Shown in pieces: positions 11,153 through 16,443 of a DNA stretch of 64,000 nucleotides (positions are counted from its first letter, which is position 1; every line of letters starts with the position of its first letter). Location of the stretch: positions 62,001 through 126,000 of the forward strand of contig NZ_KB897909.1 in the NCBI RefSeq assembly GCF_000377205.1, in the 5' to 3' direction. Under the pieces are notes generated by a model, which ran no database searches, had not been told where the DNA came from, and saw only the letters and a list, made by a program, of their open reading frames with translations. The position numbers were made by a program, and so were the translations under genes. Origin of the DNA: Thioalkalivibrio sp. ALJ3. Its GTDB lineage: Bacteria > Pseudomonadota > Gammaproteobacteria > Ectothiorhodospirales > Ectothiorhodospiraceae.

Positions 11153-14382
<3,230 letters not shown>

Positions 14383-14430
14383 GTGACGGCTCTCGCAGGC
14401 TGTCGAAATCGGAAATTCGGAGGGGGAGCT

Positions 14431-15564
14431 TTAGCGACGCGCGGCGCGCATCATCTCGACGAAGTCGTCGAACGCCGGGGACACATCGTGCGGGCCCGGG
14501 CTGGCCTCGGGATGTCCCTGCAGGCTGAAGGCCGGGCAGTCGGTGCGGGCGATCCCCTGCAGCGTGCCGTCGAACAGCGACCGGTAGGTCGGCGTCAGCG
14601 TATCGGGCAGGTTGTCCTCGTCGATCGCAAAGCCGTGATTCTGCGACGAGATCATCACCCGCCCGCTTTCCTCGTGGCGGATCGGGTGGTTCGCCCCGTG
14701 ATGGCCGAACTTCATCTTCACGCTCTTGCCGCCGCTGGCAATGCCCAGCAGTTGGTGCCCGAGGCAGATGCCGAACAGCGGCAGCTTGCGCTCGCAGAAC
14801 CCGCGGATCGCCTCGATGGCATAGGTGCAGGGCTCGGGGTCGCCCGGGCCGTTGGACAGGAATACCCCATCGGGCTTCAGCTCCATGACCTCGTCCACCG
14901 GCGTCTCGGCCGGCACCACGGTCACGCGGCATCCGCGCTCCGCCAGTTTGCGCAGGATGTTCCGCTTCATGCCGAAGTCGTAGGCCACCACATGGTATTC
15001 GGCCTTATCCGGATTGACCCGCGCCGGCGCCTCTCCCAGCTTCCAGGTCCCTTCGAGCCATTCGTAGCGAGTCCGCGTGGTGACCTCGCGCGCCAAGTCC
15101 ATCCCCTTGATGCCGGGGAACTCGCGCGCGGCTGCCAGGGCCGCGGTCTCGTCGACATCCCCGGCCTGGATGCAGCCGTTGAGTGCACCCTTCTCGCGCA
15201 GGATGCGCGTCAGCTTGCGGGTGTCGATCCCGCTGATTGCCACAATCCCATGGCGCAGCAGGTAGTCCGGCAGCGACTCGCGCGAACGAAAGTTCGATAC
15301 CAGCGGCGGCAGGTCGCGGATGATCAGCCCCGCAGCATGGGCGCGCGCGGACTCGTCGTCTTCCGGGTTGGTGCCGGTATTGCCGATATGCGGATAGGTC
15401 AGCGTGACCAGCTGCCGGTGATAGGAAGGATCCGTCAGGATCTCCTGATAGCCGGTCATCGCGGTGTTGAACACCACCTCGCCGACTGTCTGGCCCTGGG
15501 CGCCAATCGCCTGACCATGAAAAACAGTGCCATCTTCCAGGACAAGCAGAGCAGGCGCGGACAC
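14431..15564 (-). CDS. carA: Carbamoyl-phosphate synthase small (glutaminase) subunit
   Basis: Glutamine amidotransferase subunit (377 aa) that supplies ammonia to CarB. The N-terminal CPSase_sm domain starts [14 protein letters not shown]; the class I glutaminase triad is visible as the Cys in [12 protein letters not shown] and the C-terminal [12 protein letters not shown] (His and Glu). The start is GTG 15564 with GGAGG five bases upstream; the frame stays open further but without conserved sequence. Leads the carA-carB-greA operon; no clear promoter was recognised between it and the tRNA-Ser tail array. Confidence 0.96.
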
Positions 15565-15819
15565 GTGGACCTCCGGATGGTCTGGGTCGAGGCCGCCAGG
15601 CCATTTGCCGGCGGCGGTACTGCGATTCGTTCGGGATCTTCGACCCGGCCTTGCCCGCACCGTTTCGCTGGGGCTGGACCCCGCGTTCGGACAACGGTTC
15701 GGCGGCTAAAGGACGGGTGCGGTTTCGGCTGCAAGTGTACGCGAGCGCCGCGCGCGACGTCCAACGAGAATGGCCACTGGACCCTCGTGAAACGCCTTCG
15801 CCCAGGCCTCGTCGCGAGG
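15565..15819. other. Intergenic region upstream of carA
   Basis: This 255-bp stretch lies between the carA start and the end of the tRNA-Ser repeat array. I see no convincing gene in it; open frames across it have no recognisable domains. A carA promoter on the minus strand must lie here or in the array, but no good -35/-10 pair was found by eye. Confidence 0.4.
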
Positions 15820-15858
15820 ACATCGAGCCCCGGTATTGCGGGGGCCGGACATACAAAT

Positions 15859-15879
15859 AAGGGGCCAGTTGGGCCCCTT
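15859..15879 (-). terminator. Hairpin, outermost repeat copy
   Basis: AAGGGGCC (15859-15866) and GGCCCCTT (15872-15879) form a perfect 8-bp stem with a 5-nt loop. On the minus strand the 3' arm is followed by ATTTG. It is the last hairpin of the array and the best candidate for the 3' end of the tRNA-Ser precursor. Confidence 0.5.
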
Positions 15880-16043
15880 TGCTTGAATCTGACGGAGAGG
15901 GAGGGATTACTCGGCGCTACGCGCCTCGCCCTCCGGGTCGTCGCCTGCGGCGACGTTCGGGTGCCGCTACGCGTCACCCGTCGAACCCGTCTTTCTCATG
16001 TATCGAGGGTTCGAATCCCGATATGTCAGGGGCCAGACATGCG

Positions 16044-16066
16044 AAAGGGGCCACTTGGACCCCTTT
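16044..16066 (-). terminator. Hairpin, middle repeat copy
   Basis: AAAGGGG (16044-16050) pairs with CCCCTTT (16060-16066), with an A-run before and a T-run after the stem on either strand. The equivalent element recurs in each unit, so it may act as a terminator, a processing site or both. Confidence 0.45.
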
Positions 16067-16227
16067 GCTTGAATCTGGCGGAGAGGGAGGGATTACTCGG
16101 CACTGCGTGCCTCGCCCTCCGGGTCGTCCCCTGCGGCGACGTTCGGGTGCCGCTGCGCGTCACCCGTCGAACCATCATTTTCTATTTCTCGGGTTCGAAT
16201 CCCCGTACCTCCGGGGCTATACATGCG

Positions 16228-16250
16228 AAAGGGGCCACTCGGACCCCTTT
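16228..16250 (-). terminator. Hairpin directly after tRNA-Ser
   Basis: AAAGGGG (16228-16234) pairs with CCCCTTT (16244-16250), 10 nt downstream of the tRNA-Ser CCA end on the minus strand. It could terminate most transcripts, with read-through producing the repeat RNAs. Confidence 0.5.
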
Positions 16251-16259
16251 GCTCGAATC

Positions 16260-16350
16260 TGGCGGAGAGGGAGGGATTCGAACCCTCGATACGGGGTTAC
16301 CGTATACACACTTTCCAGGCGTGCGCCTTCGACCGCTCGGCCACCTCTCC
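16260..16350 (-). tRNA. tRNA-Ser (anticodon GGA)
   Basis: A 91-nt class II tRNA including encoded CCA. The acceptor GGAGAGG pairs with CCTCTCC, discriminator G; the anticodon stem CACGC/GTGTG encloses CTGGAAA, giving GGA (Ser, UCC/UCU). A long variable arm pairs TACGG/CCGTA, and the T-arm is GAGGGTTCGAATCCCTC. Immediately downstream lies the tandem array that repeats its last 19 nt. Confidence 0.97.
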
Positions 16351-16443
16351 GTTTTGTTCCGCGAAGGCGCTGGCCCACGCGAAGCGCGAAAGGGTAAACC
16401 AGCGGCGGGCGGTTAGCAATGCAGACACCCGCCACGGACAGTA

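Follow-up and report, generated by a model that had tools for sequence, protein, structure and literature searches.

The minus strand of the window, the whole stretch of 64,000 nucleotides from Thioalkalivibrio sp. ALJ3 that was analysed, carries a tRNA-Ser(GGA) gene (16350 to 16260), identified with ARAGORN, and an array of repeats, which, since it lies on this strand, is downstream of the tRNA at lower coordinates (Table 1). A preliminary description had named a tRNA-Ser(GGA) followed by a tandem array, without giving the strand, and had reported that the last 19 nucleotides of the tRNA recur, once exactly and once with one change, in units of 184–186 bp with a third partial unit. All of this was recovered, the partial unit being a further copy of the trailer with a terminator-like hairpin. 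Unit 1 starts immediately past the CCA of the tRNA, on the same strand, and the tail-to-tail spacing is 186 and 184 bp. Tandem Repeats Finder reported the region 15859–16278 with a period of 186, 2.3 copies, 88 % matches and a score of 654, which far exceeds that of every other result of this program in the window. No comparable array accompanies tRNA-Leu(GAG), the other tRNA in the window.

The last trailer of the array is the only terminator-like site of the region; no terminator was called at the trailer hairpin of unit 1 and no consensus promoter in the stretch 16386–16422 upstream of the tRNA. An open frame of 920 codons on the plus strand (13654–16416) is antisense to carAB and runs through the array, and appears to be an artefact of high GC content.

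Table 1 Features of the tRNA-Ser(GGA) locus in the window
Feature	Position	Strand	Evidence
Stretch upstream of tRNA-Ser(GGA), kept in four congeners, putatively promoter-like by eye	16386–16422	-	
tRNA-Ser(GGA), intact, CCA encoded	16260–16350	-	ARAGORN; Rfam RF00005, 57.8 bits
Repeat unit 1 (proximal), 184 nt	16076–16259	-	RtT 36.8 bits (below cutoff); R1 91.5 bits
Unit 1 trailer hairpin AAAGGGGTCC..GGCCCCTTT, then merely a short T run	16228–16250	-	Fold
Unit 1 antisense T-arm copy GGGATTCGAACCC, 13 nt complementary to tRNA-Ser	16191–16203	-	Inverted repeat
Unit 1 sense T-arm 5' half, GGTTCGA	16167–16173	-	Left end of R1 match
Unit 1 body, hairpins A–D	16095–16166	-	R1 91.5 bits; covariation
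Unit 1 19-nt tail AATCCCTCCCTCTCCGCCA, tRNA nucleotides 58–76, exact	16076–16094	-	Sequence match
Repeat unit 2 (distal), 186 nt	15890–16075	-	RtT 46.9 bits (above cutoff 45); R1 95.6 bits
Unit 2 trailer hairpin	16044–16066	-	Fold
Unit 2 antisense T-arm copy GGGATTCGAACCCTCGATAC, 20 nt, perfect complement of tRNA-Ser 16273–16292	16000–16019	-	Inverted repeat
Unit 2 sense T-arm 5' half, GGTTCGA	15981–15987	-	Left end of R1 match
Unit 2 body, hairpins A–D	15909–15980	-	R1 95.6 bits; covariation; fold
Unit 2 19-nt tail, one change (CCA to TCA; reads CCGTCA)	15890–15908	-	Sequence match
Partial third copy, trailer and terminator-like hairpin (15879–15859)	15859–15889	-	Kept after last tail in congeners
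carA ORF, downstream of array; true start probably ~15564; synteny anchor	14431–15660	-	

Anatomy and fold of the repeat unit

The Rfam model RtT (RF00391) matched both units, scoring unit 2 above and unit 1 below its curated cutoff of 45 bits. The array had earlier been called rtT-like and at the same time another sequence than rtT; the likeness holds, in anatomy as well as in score, and the relationship is closer than was supposed, as unit 2 exceeds the cutoff of the family. Both units also scored high with R1, a model built in this analysis (Table 1). The lys, arg and tyr repeats of E. coli all match R1, in which two rows from E. coli tyrT are included, the lys and arg repeats partly in shortened form, and the anatomy of the window array equals that of these repeats. 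Because RtT is one case of the tRNA-linked repeats (TLRs) of E. coli, the window array belongs to the TLR kind and is classified here as a two-unit TLR (Rfam RtT) array. It lies downstream of a tRNA on the same strand, contains copies of the tRNA 3' end (19/19 and 18/19 nucleotides) and has a hairpin body, and its two units, with one to three at the same locus in congeners, fall within the TLR range of one to five units per locus.

The order of elements in well-formed units, identical from the window to E. coli tyrT, is the CCA of the tRNA, a trailer which in many cases contains a hairpin, an antisense copy of the T-arm region of the local tRNA, GGTTCGA, the body, and AATCC...NCCA. The GGTTCGA is the 5' half of the T-arm and ends at A58, and the AATCC...NCCA corresponds to nucleotides 58–76 of the local tRNA. 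Judged by its sequence, the unit corresponds to the T-arm of a tRNA interrupted after A58, where a body of 59–82 nt with four predicted hairpins is placed. The hairpins of the body mostly have GNA loops, with 2.24 such hairpins per body compared with 0.15 in shuffled bodies. Seventeen base pairs are common to 42 diverse bodies, 91.6 % of the cells being paired (74.5 % after shuffling), with a covariation of 0.440 (0.135 after shuffling); none of 500 shuffles reached either the pairing or the covariation value, and controls with slid partners gave a covariation of at most 0.084. Changes on both sides were seen in 13 of the 17 pairs, and covariation was also found within sets of a single tRNA type of the genus (Arg; Gln). 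In minimum free energy folds, most of the expected hairpins appeared for the window's unit 2 and also for Gln and Tyr relatives, whereas the fold of unit 1 was unremarkable compared with shuffles (z -1.56) and less convincing than that of unit 2.

The loops of hairpin C read GAA (88), GCA (42), GGA (30) and GTA (8). A role of the units as a sponge for CsrA is therefore not favoured, GGA not being conserved in these loops. A coding role of the body was also discarded, its length ranging over 59–82 nt with no reading-frame step and the ORFs which span it appearing spurious. At one locus (L106:928–1020 and 1247–1341), hairpin C has extra inserted bases in the downstream unit and in an upstream interrupted tRNA copy alike.

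The 19-nt tail is the usual attachment stretch of tRNA-targeting integrases, and on this account the repeats might be scars of integrative elements with their attachment site at the 3' end of the tRNA, or else a chance segmental duplication. Such an origin is considered extremely improbable, because the T-loop core is unduplicated, with TTCGA solely to the left and ATCC solely to the right of the body, and because the same body, with a covarying structure, lies behind many tRNAs, its conservation already contradicting a scar. No integrase-like ORF was noticed between 13000 and 19500 by means of the ORF list alone.

The tail and the antisense segment both fit the local tRNA. Among 171 non-redundant units from 131 loci, which were gathered first as RtT hits and then on the condition that the tail had at most four mismatches, so that the tail statistic is partly conditioned by the selection, the tail matched that of the own tRNA exactly in 102 units and with one change in 51, i.e. 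with no more than one mismatch in 153 of 171. The nearest tail of another isotype was three to nine changes away. RtT hits without a qualifying tail were looked at separately. The antisense segment is complementary to the own tRNA over 11.1 nt on average, compared with 8.1 nt for other isotypes, the own value lying above the mean of the others in 158 of 163 units; these units are not mutually independent. In Gln, Glu and Tyr units it includes part of the acceptor stem and is able to form a helix of 10–13 bp with the tail, and in Ser and Arg units it spans the T-arm and the variable region.

A control of the tRNA by this antisense segment may be considered, in which the T-arm copy would pair with tRNA-Ser or its precursor, the tail copy would compete, and tRNA maturation would be tuned. 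The perfect 20-nt complement in unit 2 exceeds what the unit itself can pair, and the antisense stretch is locus-specific across tRNA types. Nevertheless such a control is thought improbable, as the stability of mature tRNA is very high, the complementary stretch of unit 1 amounts to just 13 nucleotides and the halves of the unit itself already offer the antisense strand good pairing.

Distribution and variation in unit number

Nine RtT matches (E up to 0.005) were found in the genome to which the window belongs, at six tRNA loci (Gln TTG, Gln CTG, Ser GCT, Ser GGA, Ser CGA and Arg ACG), and all good R1 matches of this genome sit at tRNAs already flagged by RtT. Conservation in relatives, which had been put forward as a check on the array, is extensive: RtT matches occur in 28 of 30 genomes of the genus Thioalkalivibrio and, in an even draw over the class, in 56 of 370 genomes and 48 of 272 genera (E ≤ 1e-4). 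In the class the tRNAs which precede the design are those for Gln, Ser, Tyr, Arg, Lys, Glu and Val, and the tail is nearly always the local one. R1 also matches one family outside the class and inside the phylum (f194, 17 genomes); in a family so placed, good matches lie behind Ser and Gln tRNAs (loci L248, L252 and L255–L258).

The syntenic order tRNA-Ser(GGA), array and carA was found with two, one, one and three units in genomes G000, G025, G001 and G029, respectively, with conserved flanks, and the suspicion that the array could be an accident of one strain did not survive this comparison. In the window, the distal unit clusters with its orthologs between tRNA-Ser(GGA) and carA (96 % identity to G001), the proximal unit is closest to a unit at tRNA-Ser(CGA) (92 %), and two of the three units of G029 are identical. 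These relationships fit unequal crossing-over and exchange between tRNA-Ser loci with the same tail.

The array lies between tRNA-Ser and carA in four congeners and its last trailer is the sole terminator-like site, which could be taken to mean that it acts in cis on carA as a leader, terminator stack or attenuator. We regard this as very unlikely. The element is adjoined by carA in merely 4 of the 27 congeners in which carA was found, its other copies preceding unrelated genes, and with carA so rarely adjacent a carA leader is discarded as an account of the element in general.

Interrupted tRNA copies

Outside the window, full tRNA copies lie directly upstream of several intact tRNAs, with the T-loop broken after A58 by an RtT-type body. 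At most loci the 5' part equals the neighbouring intact gene, at many with no mismatch in 56–72 nt; most of the acceptor 3' strand is kept, without CCA, and is often followed by another hairpin. Such copies were seen for Gln TTG in nine congeners and, as three in tandem, in another family, for Ser TGA in six congeners, and for Ser GGA and Ser GCT. For the interrupted tRNA-Gln copy a cloverleaf with hairpins in the T-loop was predicted. Intact tRNAs can, then, have a CCA-less form upstream and a CCA-bearing form downstream.

The interrupted tRNA-Gln(TTG) of locus L001 (1821–1950, minus strand), and those of L013, L033, L072, L081, L095, L097, L104 and L106, lie upstream of an intact tRNA-Gln and prs, with three tandem copies in L081 and two in L097, the latter with a both-sided change in the anticodon stem. 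Further interrupted copies directly upstream of intact tRNAs are those of L018, L020, L073, L074, L075 and L079 (Ser TGA) and of L173, L185 and L193, in most of which the 5' part is identical; in each of them the CCA is replaced, often by the start of a hairpin. The tRNA-Ser(GCT) copy on the reverse strand of L148 (1391–1640) has bodies in both the D-loop and the T-loop, is otherwise nearly identical, up to a truncated tail, to the intact gene and lies just upstream of it. The downstream Gln units at L033:1532–1610 and L095:887–965 have a body of the interrupted-copy sequence type, which suggests exchange between upstream and downstream elements. In L179 and L184 there are remnants of tRNA-Lys with a body in the T-loop and the CCA kept, and no intact tRNA was called near them.

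Since the same body occurs inside the T-loop, and once also the D-loop, of tRNA copies, it behaves as a separable module. It is conceivable, albeit at somewhat less than even odds, that the RtT/TLR body is generally a separable folded module lodged in tRNA loops, which marks tRNA genes across the Gammaproteobacteria in two mirrored forms, upstream a complete tRNA copy which lacks CCA and has its T-loop occupied by the body, and downstream a copy without the 5' part, with the antisense T-arm and with CCA, both being kept identical to the intact tRNA between them. If this is true, the module would represent a general, undescribed class of interrupted tRNA-like RNA. No description of interrupted upstream copies was found in the literature searched, from which the early TLR papers were out of reach, so that a prior account is possible, and the split T-arm and the antisense copy were likewise absent from the TLR literature searched.

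The main rival to a functional RNA is a selfish hairpin body which would insert into tRNA loops (the T-loop after A58, rarely the D-loop), persist in spare copies and spread by recombination, the covariation reflecting the element's own folding, of no use to the cell. The full-length copies with a T-loop body and a 5' part identical to the intact gene are in its favour, as are the tRNA-Ser(GCT) copy with two bodies and the exchange between loci suggested by the proximal and distal units of the window. The bodies in the genome of the window, however, are at tRNA loci only, in the sense direction and adjoining an intact tRNA, no target-site duplication, enzyme or fresh insertion was identified at the loci analysed, and the bodies resemble each other mostly by tRNA type, as would be expected of old residents. 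A selfish origin is accordingly judged rather unlikely, although it does not exclude that the units are processed as RNA, and the interrupted upstream copies offer a concrete handle for separating the two.

Proposed working and comparison with known repeats

The reading preferred here, with a probability of roughly 0.6, is that the TLR array is transcribed by read-through together with the tRNA, folds around the split T-arm, uses the tail as a processing signal and is released as structured RNAs tied to tRNA transcription. Transcription of tRNA-Ser(GGA) would pass the trailer hairpin, which is weak, and enter the array. In every unit the four short hairpins A–D would occupy the position of the T-loop in a compact fold, held where the antisense T-arm copy base-pairs both with the GGTTCGA half and with the tail of that unit. 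The tail repeats nucleotides 58–76 of this tRNA and would supply a 3' end recognised by tRNA maturation enzymes, and each unit would be freed as a structured RNA of ~185 nt or shorter, the level of which would track tRNA transcription. The units would multiply, shrink and be swapped via recombination between copies. The sequences show the anatomy, homology, covariation, fit of the tail and antisense segment to the local tRNA and variation in unit number at one locus; read-through, processing, release and a growth-coupled role of the RNA are what we infer for the array. In favour of the reading are the RtT hits, the covariation, the local tail and antisense segment, and published transcription and processing of relatives. 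Counting against it is the short pairing of the tail with the antisense strand in the window units (~5 bp; 10–13 bp in units of Gln, Glu and, from E. coli, Tyr), as are the score of unit 1 below the RtT cutoff and its unremarkable fold, and the TCA end of the unit 2 tail could weaken processing.

TLRs were described by Egan and Landy (1978) and Rudd (1999), as told in PMC8144298, according to which the E. coli family comprises 22 copies at ten loci, with 18–19 bp equal to the upstream stable RNA and no known function; by this account a function has been lacking since the first description in 1978. The same source reports that a claimed role of rtT in the stringent response was withdrawn by its authors in 1994, and this role was therefore not carried over to the window array. 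Its authors proposed the repeated 3' end as a signal for RNase E processing and obtained CsrA scores below 0.01 for the 19 tRNA TLRs with their predictor. Northern signals have been reported for two relatives of RtT in A. pleuropneumoniae, located close to tRNAs for Asn and Lys (PMC4986893), a 175-bp difference in rtT copy number between Salmonella serovars (PMC2658671), rtT similarity in enteric attenuator clusters (PMC2965389) and covarying tandem GA in RtT (PMC7657543).

The TLR/RtT kind was thus already known; new are the split T-arm with its covarying body, the antisense T-arm copy, the wide spread and the interrupted tRNA copies. One anatomy, strong covariation and a locus-specific tail in dozens of families point to an old element, selected or self-maintaining, beyond an E. 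coli curiosity, and follow-up is most worthwhile for the wider pattern, chiefly the interrupted copies upstream of intact tRNAs.

Among known RNAs, the model of Rfam sX4 spans tRNA-Ser into the trailer and matches weakly at 16365–16193 on the minus strand, but the 30.2 bits are far under the cutoff of 70 and the match is mostly tRNA-Ser proper. The end of the sX4 model, GGGGGGUGAGA, resembles the start of the antisense T-arm of TLRs, a hint that sX4 may be a tRNA-Ser with the start of a TLR. The E. coli RNAs RrA, RrB and RrF, TLRs behind 5S rRNA which are made by terminator read-through and processed (PMC8144298), share with the window array a repeated 3' end, hairpins and, in the proposed reading, transcription by read-through; they bind CsrA and Hfq in vitro (PMC8144298), whereas loops of the window type are GNA with any middle base. 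The TLRs of E. coli as a whole, described from this species and other enteric bacteria, are alike in carrying 18–19 bp of the 3' end of the stable RNA directly upstream, in one to five units per locus. The RtT RNA of E. coli tyrT shares with the array the covariance family, a unit of ~178–186 nt, a 19-nt tail, a hairpin body and a tandem arrangement behind a tRNA. It differs in that its antisense segment covers the acceptor and T-arm, compared with the T-arm and variable region in the window array, which lies behind tRNA-Ser(GGA).
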